DNA of 33,073 nt, from the NCBI GenBank assembly GCA_937858275.1, contig CALLZK010000014.1, positions 1 to 33,073 on the forward strand, read 5' to 3'. The position numbers and the translations under genes are program-made. The notes under the pieces were generated by a model. That model searched no databases and had not been told where the DNA came from. It saw only the letters and a program-made list of their open reading frames with translations. Each line of letters begins with the position of its first letter. The first letter of the stretch is position 1. The DNA is from an uncultured bacterium (lineage in GTDB: Bacteria > Patescibacteriota > Minisyncoccia > Phycocordibacterales > JAACPR01). Positions 1-24,322 of the stretch are shown here, in pieces.

Positions 1-2142
1 ATCTTCGTTTGTGATTGAGATTGTTGGGGCTGGTAAGGCAGTTCCACTACCATCACCAGTTCCAGAACCTCCATCAGTTCCAGAACCGCCGCCGTCACCA
101 GTTCCAGAACCGCCGCCATCGTCAGTTCCGCCAGAATTACCGTCTCCCGGATCAATATAAGGTCTTTCACAAGAGGCATAGGATACATTATCTACAATAT
201 TCCAATCTGTATGACATGTCCATGTCCAAGGACCCGAACCAGAAAGACTCGAGCTGGATCCGGGCAAACAAAGTGGCGATTGTGGTGCAGTACTTCCTGC
301 AACAATAGCACTTGGATGACATTGACCGTATGATTTTACAACATAAGGATAAGAACCTATAGCCGGTTCAGCTTCCCACCACCAATCAGAAGATCCACAA
401 CTAGATGTTCCGGCAATACAACCAAGAACCATTCTGTAATTTATATTTTTTGTACCGGTAGTATTTGGTGCGGTCAAATTATTTCTAGAATAATCTGTAT
501 ATCCTGTAAAATAATATGTTGAACCGGCCGTACCGCCACCCACATGTTGCCAACTCTCTGTGCGGTTATTATCAAAATTAGATTTTATAGAATTAAAACC
601 ATTGTTACAAGCCCAAAAAGAAATTGAGCCTGAAGTAGAAAACTTTGATCCTGGAGTTTGATTTGGAATTGCATTTGCCGTAACTATAATATATCTATTT
701 CCTATCAAATTATGTCTTTGAGAATATGCATTAGCATTATGCATCTTTGATAAATAAATTAATCCCAAAACAATCAATAAAACAAAAGCTAATATCAAAA
801 CGGTTTTGTTGTTAAGATTTTTTTTGGATAGTAAAAATAAAATAATTAAAATTAGTAAAATTATTAACATTAATATATAAAACCAATTATTTTTTATTAG
901 ATTAAATATTGTATTTTGATTTGTAAATATAATTTCATCGTTAATTGTTTTTGAACTATATTTTGCCAAAATATTACCATCTTTTGACAAAATAACTTCT
1001 GTTTCTATTGAATTTGAATTTACTTTTGATTTAATTTGAACATCTTTAATTGATTGCTGATAAAAATCATGTTCGAACTTTAATTCACCTATCAAATCAC
1101 CTTTCTCATTTTTTGATATTACATAAACTTCAACAGAACCTTCTCGATCTTCAATATTGCCCTGATTAAGAAAAAATTCTCTCATATCTAGAGGGTTTCC
1201 AGATGCAAATATGTTTATATTTAAGATTTCACCTGCAGAAATATAATTTTTGTCGTGTTTAATGTGATGTATTACAAATAAATCACCATCGGATACAATA
1301 TATCTTGCCGGTATCATTGGAGAAACAATCTTATTATCTTGATTTCTAATTATTGTTTCAGATAGAAAAACATTCTTTCCCAATTCTTTATTAGTTGGTA
1401 AATTTAAAAGTACTTTTTTCGACTCATTTGGTGAAAGTAATATTTTATCTTGATTTACTATATTTATTGGATCTTTTCTGTTTGAATCTCTTTCGAAAAT
1501 AGCTGTTTGTGGATACAATTCATGTGTTAAGTTAGAAGAATTTACAATCGTAAAAGTTAAAAAAACTTTTTCATTTTCATAAATAAACGGCCCCTCAGAA
1601 ACAAAAAATTCTTGTTCTTGATTGGTATCGTTTTCTATAACTAATATTTTTGGATTTAAAACATCAAAAAATTGAGCACTGTTTTTTATTTCAATTTTTT
1701 GATCTATAAAACCAAGAGAAATTCCATCTTTGTTAGTTACTCTTATTTTTATACCCGCATCTTTTTCTGATCTAATTGCTTCTGGTAATTTTATAGAAAA
1801 ATTAACAATTTTAGACTCAAGAGGTTTAAAATTTTCTGGACCAATTATGTTATATAAGTAGGTCATTTTTGCAACACCATTTTCGTCATAATTACCATCC
1901 ACGGATATTCTATAATAAATATCAGATTCTATAAAATTTCTACTATTTTTAACCTCAAAACTTCCCGACAAAATTTCTCCAGCATTATACACATCGCCAT
2001 TCAATGTAATTGATGTTGGCTGAACAAACGGCAAAACATTTTCAGAACTTGTTTGAGAATTAACTCTTATATCGAAACTCAAAAACAGAAATACGGGAAT
2101 TAAGAAAATGACCAAAAAACACAGCAATTTTTTAATTTTCAT
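1..2142 (-). CDS. Large exported surface protein, 3' end outside window
   Basis: An uninterrupted reading frame of 714 codons runs from an ATG at 2142 to the window edge, so only the N-terminal part is visible. Residues 1-30 look like a signal peptide (KIKK, then a hydrophobic run, then Ser-Gln). Residues 30-415 are a beta-rich, Asn/Lys/Glu-rich extracellular stretch without recognisable catalytic motifs, probably Ig-like or surface-layer-like domains. Two hydrophobic segments follow at 420-438 and 447-466, and the second ends in an ANA-Y (472/473) signal-peptidase-like site. A Cys-containing segment comes next, with a WWW run and SGSGPWTWTC ending at Cys643. I know that last module from repeats in large Patescibacteria surface proteins. 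Residues about 670-701 are a Gly/Ser/Thr/Asp linker built from repeats of GSGTGDGG type. Start choice: the ATG gives a normal signal peptide, and a TATAAT lies 35 nt upstream. Function unknown; surface adhesion or cell-wall display is inference. Confidence 0.85.
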   Translation of the reverse strand, partial: MKIKKLLCFLVIFLIPVFLFLSFDIRVNSQTSSENVLPFVQPTSITLNGDVYNAGEILSGSFEVKNSRNFIESDIYYRISVDGNYDENGVAKMTYLYNIIGPENFKPLESKIVNFSIKLPEAIRSEKDAGIKIRVTNKDGISLGFIDQKIEIKNSAQFFDVLNPKILVIENDTNQEQEFFVSEGPFIYENEKVFLTFTIVNSSNLTHELYPQTAIFERDSNRKDPINIVNQDKILLSPNESKKVLLNLPTNKELGKNVFLSETIIRNQDNKIVSPMIPARYIVSDGDLFVIHHIKHDKNYISAGEILNINIFASGNPLDMREFFLNQGNIEDREGSVEVYVISKNEKGDLIGELKFEHDFYQQSIKDVQIKSKVNSNSIETEVILSKDGNILAKYSSKTINDEIIFTNQNTIFNLIKNNWFYILMLIILLILIILFLLSKKNLNNKTVLILAFVLLIVLGLIYLSKMHNANAYSQRHNLIGNRYIIVTANAIPNQTPGSKFSTSGSISFWACNNGFNSIKSNFDNNRTESWQHVGGGTAGSTYYFTGYTDYSRNNLTAPNTTGTKNINYRMVLGCIAGTSSCGSSDWWWEAEPAIGSYPYVVKSYGQCHPSAIVAGSTAPQSPLCLPGSSSSLSGSGPWTWTCHTDWNIVDNVSYASCERPYIDPGDGNSGGTDDGGGSGTGDGGGSGTDGGSGTGDGSGTALPAPTISITNED
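41..133 (-). repeat. Gly/Ser/Thr-rich linker repeat within the surface protein
   Basis: In-frame imperfect repeats of about 24 and 15 bp encode a flexible linker (residues about 670-701 of the surface protein) with the recurring peptide GGGSGT or GGSGTGD. The repeat is GC-richer than the surrounding gene. Such linkers separate domains in exported proteins. Slippage here could vary the linker length. Confidence 0.7.
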
Positions 2143-2177
2143 AAATTTATTTTTATTATTAATAATTATATAGATTT

Positions 2178-6566: not shown

Positions 6567-8477
6567 ATGTATAACGCATCAAATAATAATAGAAGTAATT
6601 ACAACAGAGATTCTAGAAATAACTATAGAACAAATTCAACAACAGGAAATTATCAAAATAGAAACAATCATCATCACAGTAAAACAACCGGCGGTTCGAG
6701 AGTGTCAAGAGTTTCTAGAAAAGCTCCTTCGCTTAGATCAACTCTTAGACAGCAAAGAAATACAAAAATAGCCGATAGACAAAGGGGGATAATGCCTATT
6801 CCACCAGTTGATCAAAACATTAGAATAATAACAATTGGAGGAGTTGAAGAAATCGGAAAAAACATGTTGGCTATAGAAATTGGGCAAGACATCATAATAA
6901 TTGATGCCGGGTTTCAATTTAAAGATGCATCAACTCCCGGAATTGACTACATTTTACCAAATACAAAATATTTAGAAGAAAGAAAAGACAAAATCAGAGG
7001 ACTTTTTGTGACACACGGACACCTAGATCATATAGGGGCGATTCCTTACATATTGGGCAAAATTGGTAATCCGCCTATTTATTCCAGAAAATTCGGAGCA
7101 ATAATGATTCAAAAAAAGATGGAAGATTTTCCCCATCTACCAAAACCAGATATTAGAATTATTGACGGCGACGAGACAGTAAGAGCTGGAGAAATTAGAG
7201 TTGAAACTTTTCCAATTTCACATACTATACCGGATTCAATGGGTCTTATAGTAAAAACAGAACATGGTGATTTGGTTATAATAGAAGATGTTAGAGTTGA
7301 TAACATAGAAGGTGTTCCAACAGAAGAAGAAGTTGAGCACTACAAAAGATTCAAAGACAGAAAAATTCTATTATTAACAATGGATTCAACATCTATAGAA
7401 AAAGCAGGTTTTTCTATTTCAGAAAATGTTGTTATAAAAAATATAGAAAAAATAATTTCTGAAACAAAAAACCGTTTGATTATAGGAACATTTGCCTCTC
7501 AGGTAGAAAGAATCTTAGCAATTATTGATATTGCAAATAGATATGGCAAAAAAGTAGTAGTTGAGGGCAGATCAATGAAATCTAATTTAGAAATTGTAAA
7601 ATATCTTGGACTTATAAAAACAGACAATGTTATACCTGTTTCCGAAATAGAAAAATATCCACCAGATAGAATTGTAATGCTTGTTACGGGAGCCCAGGGA
7701 GAAGAATTTGCCGCACTTATGAGAATGGCAAACAAAAGTCACAAATACATTACCCTAAGAAAAACAGATACCATTTTATTATCATCATCAATTATTCCAA
7801 CCAACTACATGGCAGTTGTAAAATTAAAAGACAGTCTGTACCGCTCTGAAGCAAAAGTTATTACATATTTGGATTCTGATATTCATGCCTCAGGACACGG
7901 TAATCGTGGAGAATTAAAATGGATTCATCAACAAATTCCATACAAATTCTTTGTTCCACTTCACGGAAATCATTTTATGCTAAGACAACATGCTGAGATG
8001 GCAGAATCTATGGGGGTAAAACCAGAAAATATTATAGTTCCAGATAATGGATCAATAATAGAACTAACTGATTCGGGACAAAATATTACAAAACTACCTG
8101 TAAAAGCTCCAAATGAGCCGGTTACGGTTGATGGTTTGGCAGTTGGAACAATACAAGATGTTGTGCTTGAAGATAGACAGCTTTTGGCAGAAGCTGGAAT
8201 ATTTGTGATTGTGGCTAGTGTAAATATCAGAACTGGAAAATTAAAGAAATCACCGGATATAATTTCTCGTGGTTTTGTATATCTGAGAGAGTCTCAGGAA
8301 CTACTAAGAAAAGCACGATTTATAACTCAAAAAAATGTTGAGAATTATTTGGCCAAAAATCAAGGTCCTGTAGATTTTGACAAAATCAAAAAAATATTAA
8401 GTGACGACTTAAGCAAATTCCTGTTTCAGGAAACAGCAAAACAGCCTTTGGTTATACCAGTTATAATTGGTGTATAA
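6567..8477 (+). CDS. rnj: Ribonuclease J
   Basis: Metallo-beta-lactamase/beta-CASP nuclease with endonuclease and 5'-3' exonuclease activity on mRNA and rRNA precursors. The 636-residue protein shows the metal-binding THGHLDH (His150, His152, Asp154, His155), His219 in ISHT, and a bridging Asp241 in EDVRVD, where most relatives read GDFKFD. The beta-CASP part has HASGHG and PLHGNHFML. The C-terminal part includes IISRGFVYLRES. The first 80 residues are a low-complexity Asn/Ser/Arg tail (with HHH at 35-37) rather than part of the fold, probably disordered RNA-binding. Start: ATG without SD, 17 bp after the preceding stop. Confidence 0.95.
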   Translation: MYNASNNNRSNYNRDSRNNYRTNSTTGNYQNRNNHHHSKTTGGSRVSRVSRKAPSLRSTLRQQRNTKIADRQRGIMPIPPVDQNIRIITIGGVEEIGKNMLAIEIGQDIIIIDAGFQFKDASTPGIDYILPNTKYLEERKDKIRGLFVTHGHLDHIGAIPYILGKIGNPPIYSRKFGAIMIQKKMEDFPHLPKPDIRIIDGDETVRAGEIRVETFPISHTIPDSMGLIVKTEHGDLVIIEDVRVDNIEGVPTEEEVEHYKRFKDRKILLLTMDSTSIEKAGFSISENVVIKNIEKIISETKNRLIIGTFASQVERILAIIDIANRYGKKVVVEGRSMKSNLEIVKYLGLIKTDNVIPVSEIEKYPPDRIVMLVTGAQGEEFAALMRMANKSHKYITLRKTDTILLSSSIIPTNYMAVVKLKDSLYRSEAKVITYLDSDIHASGHGNRGELKWIHQQIPYKFFVPLHGNHFMLRQHAEMAESMGVKPENIIVPDNGSIIELTDSGQNITKLPVKAPNEPVTVDGLAVGTIQDVVLEDRQLLAEAGIFVIVASVNIRTGKLKKSPDIISRGFVYLRESQELLRKARFITQKNVENYLAKNQGPVDFDKIKKILSDDLSKFLFQETAKQPLVIPVIIGV

Positions 8478-21208: not shown

Positions 21209-22267
21209 CTAACTTAGATCGGCAATGAAAATTTCCAAAGGCAAAAACGGCAAAGGTGAGTTTATTGATTTTTCATATACCTCAAGTAAATTCAAAATTA
21301 TTTTTGAATTTATATTTTGGGTGTTTTCGGAAACTAATTGTGTCAAAAATTTTAAATCGTCTTCTGAAACTGTGTCTATGTACAAATCCTTATCTTCTTT
21401 TGAAACTTTCAAAATCAAAGCAATTCTCATTTTATCAATTAGTAATTTTAGAAAAATTTTTGAATCAATATTTCTCTCTTTTGCAAAAGAAATAGATTTT
21501 AGACCCAAAATGCTTTCTTTTTTCAAAATAGAACAAACAACATCGTTTATAAGGGCGGATTTTGGAGCACCAACAACTCTTTCAACTTCTTCTGCTGATA
21601 TTTTTTTATCATCAGAAGCTCTAATTAATTTTTGAAGACTGGTGTGAGCATCTCGAAATGATCCGTCACCCAAAATTGCAAGAAGTTCGGCGGCATCATT
21701 ATCCAAATCATATCCTTCAGATTTTGCTGTTTTTATAATCATCTTTTTTAAAACATTTGTGTTTGGAGATTTGAAATTATAATGTTCACATCTTGAAATG
21801 ACTGTCTCTGGTAATTTTTCTGGCTCTGTTGTGGCCAAAACAAAGACAACATGTTTTGGTGGCTCTTCTAAAGTTTTTAACAAAGCATTAAAAGCCGATT
21901 TTGAAAGCATATGAACCTCATCCAAAATATAAACTTTGTATTTTGATTCAAAAGGTAATGTCAAAACAGATTCAGTTAATCGACGAATTTCTTCTACACC
22001 GTTATTTGAAGCAGCATCGATTTCATACAAATCACTATCTAATGTTCCAATTTCATTAGCCAAGATTCGTGCCACAGAAGTTTTACCAGTTCCCCTTGTG
22101 CCAGAAAAAAGATATGCATGTGAAATATTTCCAAGTTTTAAAGAGTTTTGCAAAACAGTTGTGACTTGTTCTTGACCCAAAACATCAGAAAATTTTTGTG
22201 GACGATATTTTGTGTATAAAGCAATATTAAAATCATTATTTTCTGAATTTTTTGTGTTTTTTGACAT
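21209..22267 (-). CDS. dnaX: DNA polymerase III clamp-loader subunit (gamma/tau), short form without zinc module
   Basis: AAA+ motor that loads the sliding clamp. N-terminal YTKYRPQKFSDVLGQE, Walker A GTRGTGKT (56-63), EIDAASNNGVEEIR, Walker B LDEVHML (115-121), EEPP, ATTEPEKLPETVISRC with the SRC motif (158-160), and FRDAHTSLQKL. The four-Cys zinc module that normally lies between Walker A and EIDAAS is missing: about 20 residues are deleted and no Cys is present there. The 352-residue protein ends with the collar domain, lacking the tau-specific C terminus. TGATATAAT lies six bases before the ATG, so the mRNA is probably leaderless. Confidence 0.94.
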   Translation of the reverse strand: MSKNTKNSENNDFNIALYTKYRPQKFSDVLGQEQVTTVLQNSLKLGNISHAYLFSGTRGTGKTSVARILANEIGTLDSDLYEIDAASNNGVEEIRRLTESVLTLPFESKYKVYILDEVHMLSKSAFNALLKTLEEPPKHVVFVLATTEPEKLPETVISRCEHYNFKSPNTNVLKKMIIKTAKSEGYDLDNDAAELLAILGDGSFRDAHTSLQKLIRASDDKKISAEEVERVVGAPKSALINDVVCSILKKESILGLKSISFAKERNIDSKIFLKLLIDKMRIALILKVSKEDKDLYIDTVSEDDLKFLTQLVSENTQNINSKIILNLLEVYEKSINSPLPFLPLEIFIADLS

Positions 22268-22273
22268 TTAAAG

Positions 22274-22282
22274 ATTATATCA
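22274..22282 (-). promoter_or_regulatory. Extended -10 promoter of dnaX
   Basis: TGATATAAT on the minus strand, six bases before the dnaX ATG at 22267. The spacing equals that of the MFS gene. Confidence 0.7.
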
Positions 22283-22315
22283 AATTTTCAATTTTTTTTA
22301 AAATATTTAAAATAA

Positions 22316-22349
22316 AGGGCCCGATCAGAAAAAGTCTGACCGGGCCCAG
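22316..22349 (-). terminator. GC-rich terminator of the 28-residue ORF unit
   Basis: A 12-bp stem (GGGCCCG, then one pair, then TCAG) with a seven-base loop, followed on the minus strand by TTTATTTT. The single non-Watson-Crick position is a G-U pair in minus-strand RNA but an A-C mismatch in plus-strand RNA, so the functional transcript is the minus strand. Confidence 0.85.
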
Positions 22350-22357
22350 GTTTGGTC

Positions 22358-22444
22358 TCAGCGGCGACTCTTAGGCCATGAGACACCGCGGTTCATCGTG
22401 GTTTTAGTACAAAGACGTCGTCGATGAATTTTTCCAAGGAACAT
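22358..22444 (-). CDS. 28-residue basic peptide with perfect SD
   Basis: A very short ORF starting at an ATG preceded by AGAAAGGAGGTGAG at ideal spacing, and ending in TGA 9 bp before a strong terminator. The peptide starts MFLGKIHRRRL and ends WPKSRR. It is very basic, has one Cys and no hydrophobic helix, so it is unlike type I toxins. Codons such as CGC, CGA, CGT and CGG are used, unlike the AGA-dominated neighbours. I do not recognise it; it is not bL36, bTHX or the Aurora-kinase-interacting small protein family. It could be a small ribosome- or RNA-binding protein or a regulatory leader peptide. A longer in-frame ORF back to 22753 crosses a terminator and hairpins and is rejected. Confidence 0.55.
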   Translation of the reverse strand: MFLGKIHRRRLCTKTTMNRGVSWPKSRR

Positions 22445-22448
22445 TTTT

Positions 22449-22462
22449 CTCACCTCCTTTCT
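22449..22462 (-). promoter_or_regulatory. Full-length Shine-Dalgarno of the 28-residue ORF
   Basis: AGAAAGGAGGTGAG is complementary to the complete usual 16S 3' tail, with about four bases to the ATG. Almost no other gene in this window has an SD. Confidence 0.8.
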
Positions 22463-22487
22463 GTATTTTAATCGGGTTTGAATTTTG

Positions 22488-22654
22488 GTGATGCTTTTGG
22501 ACATCACCCTTTTCTTTGACAATTTTGAAAGTCCATTCAAGATTGTCAAAATTGAAAAATGGTCGCGGTGAACTTTGTCCTCAAACAATTTTGAAACAAA
22601 AAAATTGTCAAAATGTTTCAATCCACACACAAAGTCACCGCGATAATAAAGAAC
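22488..22654 (-). ncRNA. Structured RNA leader with three hairpins (candidate cis-regulatory RNA)
   Basis: Between an extended -10 box and the SD of the 28-residue ORF, three hairpins follow each other. Stem I joins TCGCGGTGA (22563-22571) to TCACCGCGA (22635-22643) over 9 bp, continued after a one-base bulge by CTTTGT/ACAAAG, and encloses an 8-bp TTGAAACA/TGTTTCAA stem. Stem II (22515-22550) has 9+5 bp around one non-canonical position. Stem III (22488-22509) has a 7-bp GGTGATG/CATCACC stem. TTTTGACAAT and TTTCAAAATTG occur in both stem I and stem II, so the two copies could exchange partners. The stem I arm CACCGCG can also pair with CGCGGTG inside the ORF. Caveat: the odd position in stem II pairs as U-G on the plus strand and is an A-C mismatch on the minus strand. 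No known RNA family was recognised. Confidence 0.5.
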
Positions 22655-22660
22655 AAAAGT

Positions 22661-22669
22661 TTTATAACA
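22661..22669 (-). promoter_or_regulatory. Extended -10 promoter of the structured-leader unit
   Basis: TGTTATAAA on the minus strand; predicted start near 22654, about 10 bases before stem I. It lies downstream of a terminator, so the unit is probably independent of the gene before it. Confidence 0.5.
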
Positions 22670-22711
22670 CAATATCAAAAATCTAATTAAAATACAACCC
22701 CGCAAATTTAA

Positions 22712-22742
22712 AAACACCCGCAGTCTTTCGATTGCGGGTGTT
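22712..22742 (-). terminator. Terminator of the 103-residue ORF unit
   Basis: ACACCCGCA pairs with TGCGGGTGT (9 bp, 10-base loop), followed on the minus strand by TTTTAAATTT. The plus-strand side lacks a T tract, so it works for minus-strand transcription. Confidence 0.85.
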
Positions 22743-22761
22743 AAGGTCACCATTTTTTTAA

Positions 22762-22785
22762 GGGGGTTAGAATTCCCCCATTTTT
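22762..22785. repeat. GGGGG/CCCCC hairpin in the intercistronic region
   Basis: Five G and five C separated by eight bases. On the plus strand it is followed by ATTTTT, so it is terminator-like in that direction. On the minus strand it lies between the second SD and the terminator, and overlaps a four-codon ORF (ATG GGG GAA TTC TAA). Confidence 0.45.
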
Positions 22786-22791
22786 AGCTCA

Positions 22792-22833
22792 ACGGAATCA
22801 CCTCCTTTCTGAGTCAGAATTGACTCATTTTTT
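22792..22833 (-). promoter_or_regulatory. Orphan full-length SD plus hairpin after the 103-residue ORF
   Basis: Directly after the stop codon comes a TGAGTCA/TGACTCA hairpin (22810-22827). It is followed by AGAAAGGAGGTGATTCC, again fully complementary to a 16S 3' end. The only start codons at sensible distance give minimal ORFs: TTG AGC TAA eight bases on, or a four-codon ATG ORF about 18 bases on. On the plus strand the same hairpin is followed by six T, so it is terminator-like there. Confidence 0.5.
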
Positions 22834-23143
22834 ACCGGGGGAGCTTTTTGTCGTCAAGCTCCCGATCCAAGATTGTTTTCCGCCAATTTTCGTTTTGTTG
22901 GCGAAGATAATCCAAATCTTCTTCAGTTATCGGTCCATCCAGAACGATGACCTTAAGATTGGGATATTTTTCATTGTGGGCATCAATTGCCCATCGATGA
23001 AGTAGCGACCGATCATAGGTCACTGGTCGAACACCTATTTGACCCAGAGTGTCCCACTTAATCGTCCAACCAAAGTTAGTGAAAAACAGGAAACCCGCAG
23101 CAACCAGCACCAGCAGAAAAATATTTTTAAAAAATTCCTTCAT
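22832..23143 (-). CDS. 103-residue signal-anchored protein, unknown function, atypical codon use
   Basis: The ATG at 23143 is chosen because GAAGGAG lies six bases upstream; an in-frame ATG at 23197 would add 18 charged residues and cross a hairpin. The product has an N-terminal anchor (about 7-22), a short linker with GWTIKWDTLGQIG, then a soluble domain (LLHRWAIDAHNEKYPNLKVIVLDG) and a charged helix (ITEEDLDYLRQQNENWRK). I do not recognise the family. Codons such as CTG, CGG, CGC and GGT are common here but rare in the flanking genes, and the GC content is visibly higher. This suggests recent acquisition or selection for strong translation. Confidence 0.7.
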   Translation of the reverse strand: MKEFFKNIFLLVLVAAGFLFFTNFGWTIKWDTLGQIGVRPVTYDRSLLHRWAIDAHNEKYPNLKVIVLDGPITEEDLDYLRQQNENWRKTILDRELDDKKLPR

Positions 23144-23153
23144 TCTTTTCTCC

Positions 23154-23171
23154 TTCGCCAGTTTGTCTGGC
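23154..23171 (-). repeat. Leader hairpin next to the SD of the 103-residue ORF
   Basis: GCCAG/CTGGC with a five-base loop ends directly before GAAGGAG on the minus strand, so it could affect access to the SD. On the plus strand it is followed by TTTATTATTTT. Confidence 0.4.
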
Positions 23172-23205
23172 TTTATTATTTTACTTAAAAACATCAAAGA
23201 TCATT

Positions 23206-23233
23206 CCACAAAAAACAGTTTTGTGGTTTTTTT
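23206..23233. terminator. CCACAAAA/TTTTGTGG hairpin with T7 tail on the plus strand
   Basis: An 8-bp stem with a five-base loop, followed on the plus strand by seven T. No plus-strand gene precedes it. On the minus strand it forms the first hairpin of the 103-residue ORF leader. Either role is possible. Confidence 0.45.
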
Positions 23234-23243
23234 ACTGCTTATA

Positions 23244-23271
23244 AGTATAACATATATGTAATTTTTGTCAA
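23244..23271 (-). promoter_or_regulatory. Promoter of the 103-residue ORF unit
   Basis: TTGACA (23271-23266), a 16-bp spacer ending TGT, and TATACT (23249-23244) on the minus strand. It combines a perfect -35 with an extended -10. The predicted leader is about 94 nt and contains two hairpins. Confidence 0.8.
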
Positions 23272-23344
23272 ATAATAAAAGGTAATTTTTTTCTATTTTT
23301 CATACAATTTAATATTACACAAATTGCATTTCAAAGAAGGGTTT

Positions 23345-24322
23345 TCATTTGTGTTCTTTTAACCATAAATTTATGATTTCAGAAACTTCTTCTGCAGAAT
23401 TTGTATCCATCAATTTGTGTCTTAATTCTTTTGCCCCATCAAAACCTTCAATATATGCCTTAAAATGTTTTTTCATAACTGCAAAATTTTTATATTCAAT
23501 TTCTTTTTCAAAAAGTTTTGCATGTTCTACAGCAACTATTAATTTTTCTTTAATTGTTGGTGTGTAACCACTAAAAAACCAAGGATTACCAAAAATTCCC
23601 CTACCAATCATCACACCGTCACAATTAGTTTCTTTAAATTTATCATATGCCATTTGTAAACTTGTAACATCACCATTTCCAAAAATTAAAGTGTTTGATT
23701 TTAATTCGTCCCTGATTTGTACAGCGGTTTTTATTCTATGCCATTTTGCTGGAACTTTAGACATCTCTTTTCTTGTTCTGGCATGAATTGTTATAACTGA
23801 AGGATTAGTTTTTAATAAAAATTTTAACCAATCTTCCATATTGTCTTGATTATATCCAAGACGAATTTTTACAGAAACTGGCAAATTTGGAGCACCGTCT
23901 TTTGCCGAAAGAATAATTTCTTTGGCAAGATCTGGATTTTTAATCATGGCTGCTCCACAACCCTGTTTTTCAATACTACGATCTGGACAACCCATATTTA
24001 TATCAATTCCATCAAAACCCAAATCTTGTACCAATTTGGCAGATTTTTTCATGTTTTCTGGTTTTGAACTAAATAATTGAGCAACAATCGGATGTTCTTT
24101 TTTGCTGAATTTTAAACCCTCTAGCAATTTCTTTTTGCCTTCCTCTGGAGCCAAAACTAATCCATCAGCAGATACGAATTCTGTCCAAAAAACATCTGGT
24201 TTGCCATATTTTGCAATTATTTTACGAAAAGCTGAATCTGTAACATCAGCCATTGGAGCCAAGACAACAATGGGCTTTTTGTCTTTATCTTTGTCTTTTT
24301 TTAATTTTTGCCAAAAATCCAT
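23345..24322 (-). CDS. dus: tRNA-dihydrouridine synthase
   Basis: FMN enzyme that reduces uridines in tRNA D loops. The 325-residue TIM-barrel protein has LAPMADVTDSAFR, DGIDINMGCPDRS with the catalytic Cys112, the flavin-binding HARTRKE, NGDVTS, and MIGRGIFGNPWFF, then a small helical C-terminal domain. It resembles DusB most, but the subtype is not certain. It is the last gene of the serS-ftsQ cluster, with its ATG seven bases after the preceding stop. TATAAA six bases before the ATG could give a leaderless internal start. Confidence 0.93.
   Translation of the reverse strand: MDFWQKLKKDKDKDKKPIVVLAPMADVTDSAFRKIIAKYGKPDVFWTEFVSADGLVLAPEEGKKKLLEGLKFSKKEHPIVAQLFSSKPENMKKSAKLVQDLGFDGIDINMGCPDRSIEKQGCGAAMIKNPDLAKEIILSAKDGAPNLPVSVKIRLGYNQDNMEDWLKFLLKTNPSVITIHARTRKEMSKVPAKWHRIKTAVQIRDELKSNTLIFGNGDVTSLQMAYDKFKETNCDGVMIGRGIFGNPWFFSGYTPTIKEKLIVAVEHAKLFEKEIEYKNFAVMKKHFKAYIEGFDGAKELRHKLMDTNSAEEVSEIINLWLKEHK

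Follow-up and report, generated by a model that had tools for sequence, protein, structure and literature searches.

A putative orphan small-protein gene with a strongly folded leader and a perfect Shine-Dalgarno sequence between dusB and dnaX in a patescibacterial genome

The gap between dusB and dnaX in this contig of an uncultured member of the Patescibacteriota carries a compact minus-strand arrangement, which raises the question of whether it encodes a small protein or acts as an RNA in its own right. The original prediction had described it as either a regulated small-protein unit or a switch-like RNA. Here, we analysed the window (the whole stretch of 33,073 nt) and compared it with related genomes. 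The reading that we prefer, and to which we give about an even chance of being correct, is that of an independent minus-strand transcription unit of ~340 nt for an orphan basic peptide, ORF28, located together with a second small gene, ORF103, in an accessory islet. The evidence suggests that ORF28 is an accessory small gene, either young or acquired.

The predicted elements, namely the -10 box, three hairpins, the Shine-Dalgarno (SD) sequence, a 28-codon reading frame and a terminator, were all located on the minus strand (Table 1). The extended -10 has no good -35 and was missed by a consensus promoter scan, and judged by consensus this putative promoter constitutes weak evidence; transcription is expected to start near 22655, with a leader of ~190 nt before the SD. 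The complementarity of the SD to 16S rRNA proved as perfect as had been claimed, its length being 13 contiguous nucleotides and not 14. Its duplex with the 16S tail, taken from a relative (L027) because this assembly yielded no 16S gene, has an energy of -22.7 kcal/mol, and the ATG follows the GGAGG at ~8 nt. The encoded peptide contains nine lysine or arginine residues and no acidic ones (net charge +9) and lacks a hydrophobic stretch; this charge suggests that it may bind nucleic acid or a membrane. The repeated segments noted earlier in two of the hairpins were recovered (ACAATTTTGAAA at 12/12 and AA(G/A)ATTGTCAAAAT at 13/14 positions), with the 3' arm of stem II able to pair 12/12 with the loop of stem I, and so was the CGCGGTG copy shared by stem I and the reading frame, which belongs to a 10-nt direct repeat with 90% identity.

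Table 1. Elements of the dusB-dnaX gap in window coordinates.
Feature	Position	Strand	Details and basis
dusB-dnaX islet	22268..23344	.	1077 bp, atypical composition
dnaX -10 box	22274..22279	-	TATAAT, 6 nt before the dnaX ATG
Intrinsic terminator, ORF28 unit	22317..22347	-	GGGCCCGGTCAGACTTTTTCTGATCGGGCCC then TTTATTTT; 13 pairs, 9 of them G-C
ORF28	22358..22444 (with stop; codons 22444-22361)	-	28 codons, MFLGKIHRRRLCTKTTMNRGVSWPKSRR; orphan
Perfect 13-nt SD	22450..22462	-	AGAAAGGAGGTGA; the genome has one further exact copy
Stem III	22487..22508	-	hairpin GGTGATG-TCCAAAAG-CATCACC; sequence and folding
Stem II	22515..22550	-	hairpin, 14/15 pairs, copy 2 of the repeated element; folding
Stem I	22563..22643	-	long hairpin with imperfect pairing, bounded by outer arms CGCGGTGA / TCACCGCG; carries the first copy of the TTTTGACAAT...TTTCAAAATTG element; in MFE and centroid folds
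Extended -10, ORF28 unit	22661..22669	-	TGTTATAAA; read from sequence, inferred
Terminator, ORF103 unit	22712..22745	-	AACACCCGCAATCGAAAGACTGCGGGTGTTTTT
Second perfect SD	22798..22810	-	after ORF103; followed by TTG AGC TAA and a terminator
ORF103	22832..23143	-	orphan small protein, hydrophobic N-terminal stretch
ORF103 promoter	23244..23271	-	near-consensus TTGACA-16-TATACT with TG

Folding of the whole unit on the minus strand is far more stable than that of shuffled sequences (z = -5.8; leader alone, -4.9). Because the plus strand folds about equally well (-6.3 and -4.8), the sense strand cannot be told from folding. It follows instead from the terminator, the SD and the start codon, which as read from the sequence give the minus strand. 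The wobble in the terminator favours the same strand, and the odd position in stem II (C.A on the minus and G.U on the plus strand) does not, both as originally stated. Leader structure as a general trait of genes with a perfect SD was rejected, since z ranged from -3.3 to +2.8 in 18 other such leaders; compared with those of orphan small-protein genes in related Patescibacteria, the ORF28 leader is unusually strongly folded.

The comparable folding of both strands, the duplicated inverted repeat and the non-native composition would also fit a relic or a DNA-level element, that is, a decayed gene or a duplicated inverted-repeat element such as an operator or a mobile remnant, with ORF28 forming the end of an open frame of 131-141 codons. 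A 141-codon open frame in the gap is indeed somewhat longer than expected (P = 0.023, 1000 shuffles). However, the start of this frame would lie upstream of the promoter and beside the preceding terminator, and the frame matches no family; the SD and the terminator of ORF28 are intact, and no other copy occurs in the genome, all of which makes such an origin decidedly unlikely.

Could the leader instead gate translation? Alternative pairings responding to a ligand, to temperature or to ribosomes might do so, the candidates being pairing of a stem II arm with the loop of stem I, of CATTTTTC with GAAAAATG at the start codon, and of a stem I arm with the reading frame. According to the predicted ensemble, CATTTTTC, which lies just after stem I, covers the start codon about half of the time (P about 0.5), and the masked and open forms differ by only 0.1 kcal/mol; the 12/12 alternative pairing is likewise what a switch would offer. 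Yet the 8-nt complement that masks the start occurs in 541 of 2000 dinucleotide shuffles (27%), and being at chance level it is no evidence for a switch. Moreover, AT-rich repeats make alternative pairings easy, much of the SD is open in the predicted ensemble, and unusual folding is absent from most of the other leaders with a perfect SD. We therefore see little chance that the leader is switch-like and find this reading unsupported so far.

A covariance model of the leader retrieved, among 297 genomes of the order, only the leader itself and its own stem II on the plus strand, the nearest of these genomes belonging to other genera. Neither a DNA search with the unit in 59 genomes nor a search for the peptide in the three-genome family gave a convincing homologue, and phage and plasmid collections yielded no match. 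The leader thus stands as a single sequence that provides no covariation in favour of a switch. The claim of a regulated unit is weakened by this lack in relatives, with the reservation that the nearest genomes compared represent other genera (dnaX 58-63% identical) and are too distant for a fair test of homology. At the gathering score, Rfam 15 identified only a tRNA in the window, and a permissive scan of the gap gave chance-level matches far below the gathering scores (best E about 0.1), in agreement with the initial statement that the element could not be matched to a known family. Similarly, Pfam and NCBIfam assigned no family to ORF28, to ORF103/121 or to the 131-codon frame. Thus, the small-protein half of the original alternative is supported by the anatomy and by the comparison with other SD-led frames described below (20 of 26), whereas its regulated or switch-like half is not supported, with neither a homologous leader nor an Rfam match.

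Speaking against a translated peptide, the codon statistics of ORF28 resemble those of shuffled sequence (P = 0.66), and a run of 28 open codons is not an unlikely event. One alternative is that the transcript is a dual-function or purely regulatory sRNA, the structured 5' part of which pairs with other RNAs, the reading frame being secondary or incidental. Its size, its own promoter and terminator, the folded 5' part (z -4.9) and the short frame at the 3' end would all suit such a role, and coding frames within sRNAs are common (PMC5521070). A pure sRNA, however, needs no perfect SD at suitable spacing, and neither an Rfam match nor a conserved RNA in the 297 genomes was found, so that we consider this explanation unlikely, if still a serious one.

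As for its surroundings, the ORF28 unit is separate from dnaX because dnaX has its own promoter and a terminator intervenes. A dnaX attenuator or leader peptide was rejected on the same grounds, the terminator being followed by dnaX with its own TATAAT, and from the position of this box dnaX looks leaderless. On the other side lies ORF103, with an SD AAGGAG (-9.9 kcal/mol), a GC3 of 0.43 and a longer TTG frame (ORF121) beginning at 23197; its codon statistics carry a weak signal (P 0.02), while those of ORF28 carry none. ORF103/121 (22832-23197) is preceded by two leader hairpins, and no convincing homologue was found in the roughly 300 genomes of the order searched (297).

The islet between dnaX, which ends at 22267, and dusB, which begins at 23345, stands out in size and composition. 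Its 1077 bp compare with 327 bp for the next largest gap and less than 100 bp for most others among the genes listed in the window, whose starts come from an open reading frame list and not from a trained gene finder. GC3 reaches 0.43 in ORF28 and ORF103 versus 0.15-0.26 in 24 housekeeping genes. At the far end of the window (1-2150, minus strand), inspection by eye revealed a long protein frame that runs off the contig end and has a proline-rich repeat close to where it is truncated. Across 66 loci in which dusB lies directly upstream of dnaX, our own included, the gap measures at most 20 bp in 13 and at least 200 bp in 52. At the junction loci L037-L122, the two genes either abut or leave 0.1-2.2 kb of orphan DNA between them, for the most part unrelated from locus to locus and containing short SD-led reading frames. 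When the gap contents were compared all against all, matches were few and short, and the best of these fell in a region resembling a promoter. AGGAGG is biased towards the sense strand in the gaps (29:9), where short SD-led frames recur with differing sequences, and the gap is GC-richer than its flanks in 23 of the 33 genomes with flanks below 45% GC (P 0.016). Terminator calls in these gaps are incomplete. We infer that dusB and dnaX were directly adjacent in the ancestral state and that accessory sequence has entered their junction repeatedly.

The 25 housekeeping genes analysed in the window all lack a recognisable SD, their duplex energies being no stronger than -6.3, compared with -22.7 for ORF28, and in relatives the SD duplexes of 80 dnaX and 43 dusB genes are at background. 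In six of the 25, TATAAT is found 4-12 nt upstream of the start codon, compared with a background of 1.5% per 21 nt, and by this arrangement these six genes look leaderless. The exact 13-mer AGAAAGGAGGTGA has two copies in the 600 kb genome, both inside the islet, and AAGGAGGT occurs six times genome-wide versus 25 times for the reversed word. Another orphan, ORF93 on contig C8 of the same assembly (G000; L198 / L136), has a strong SD, AGAAAGGAGGCAA, and a GC3 of 0.40; since the adjoining ORF164 has an SD with a native GC3 of 0.20, the link between a strong SD and raised GC3 is not strict. The 10-mer AAAGGAGGTG was uninformative as an SD marker, most of the examined sites falling inside coding frames. 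The literature searched contained no treatment of SD usage in this bacterial group.

Extending the comparison to 147 genomes of the order, the 13-mer had 37 listed sites as opposed to seven for a reversed control. We read 31 sites in context: four lie in long coding sequences, one is antisense to 16S, and 20 of the remaining 26 combine a suitably spaced start codon with a reading frame of 10-392 codons, mostly shorter than 100, although several of these class counts were made after seeing the data. Ten such proteins (some cut to 80 residues) had no match in a Pfam scan, and in 13 of 18 cases the frames of this class exceeded the DNA around them in GC content (P 0.013). With its 13-nt match to the L027 16S tail 8 nt from the start, ORF28 fits a class of SD-led orphan small genes, as far as sequence features can assign it. 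Strong SDs also occur directly before terminators, with no reading frame or one of two codons, often just after a stop codon (22798-22810 in the window, G000:C4:14806 (L130), L004, L017, L049, L090 and L097). The recurrence of such sites, and the second perfect SD of the islet with its two-codon frame, are compatible with an untranslated ribosome-binding element that recruits the 30S subunit without useful translation, as a STAB-SD-like sequence or a 16S sponge, the start codon of ORF28 then being incidental. However, a perfect SD in this order is in most cases followed by a reading frame, and SDs in dusB-dnaX gaps showed no significant preference for positions immediately ahead of terminators (P about 0.3), which renders this explanation highly improbable.

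Returning to the preferred reading, in which ORF28 is an accessory small gene with its own transcript, the unit would be transcribed from the extended -10 and the peptide would be made. The three hairpins and the very strong SD may then act passively, by keeping a 30S subunit bound and protecting the 5' end against RNase J, so that a short and weakly promoted mRNA would become long-lived and well translated. Such stabilisation by leader and SD is proposed by analogy with STAB-SD and the aprE leader, and because the window contains an RNase J gene (6567-8477, TIGR00649 above cut-off). STAB-SD blocks RNase J1 (PMC4113751), and the aprE leader is stabilised by a 5' stem-loop plus ribosome binding, according to a title cited in PMC3997798. 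A broader and much more speculative proposal, in which we place little confidence, is that this patescibacterial order reserves strong SD initiation for a separate layer of accessory small genes, along with 3' elements that dock ribosomes, and that its core genes either are leaderless or lack an SD; the ORF28 leader, with its mutually exclusive start-codon pairings, would be a dedicated regulatory device of that layer. If right, these very small genomes would retain an intact anti-SD that is spent mainly on short, fast-turning-over accessory genes, and a perfect SD, raised GC3 and the dusB-dnaX junction would offer a sequence handle for unannotated small proteins in uncultivated symbionts. The claim of a switch would itself matter only if homologues in close relatives showed covariation.

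Several known systems resemble the ORF28 unit in part. Type I toxin-antitoxin units share with it a short peptide gene and a structured mRNA, but their toxins are hydrophobic membrane peptides, whereas the ORF28 peptide is basic and has no hydrophobic segment. Between 22150 and 23300, the plus strand shows weak promoter-like sites (9/12), and no promoter for an antisense RNA was found. SR1/SR1P, SgrS/SgrT and RNAIII are examples of dual-function sRNAs. The first two have in common with the ORF28 unit a short RNA, an own promoter and terminator, a structured part and a short SD-led reading frame, and differ from it in that the ORF28 unit has no homology, known target or Rfam match. The STAB-SD of Bacillus thuringiensis cry3A and the aprE leader with its 5' stem-loop and ribosome-binding site likewise combine a very strong SD and 5' hairpins with a genome encoding RNase J. 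STAB-SD, however, is situated near the 5' end and starts no translation, while the SD of ORF28 lies ~8 nt before a start codon and after a leader of ~190 nt. Finally, the orphan small-protein genes of related Patescibacteria (L008-L036 and the dusB-dnaX gaps), although without sequence similarity to ORF28, share with it a perfect or near-perfect SD and a short reading frame of no family, and, like the ORF28 unit, often have their own terminator and raised GC.
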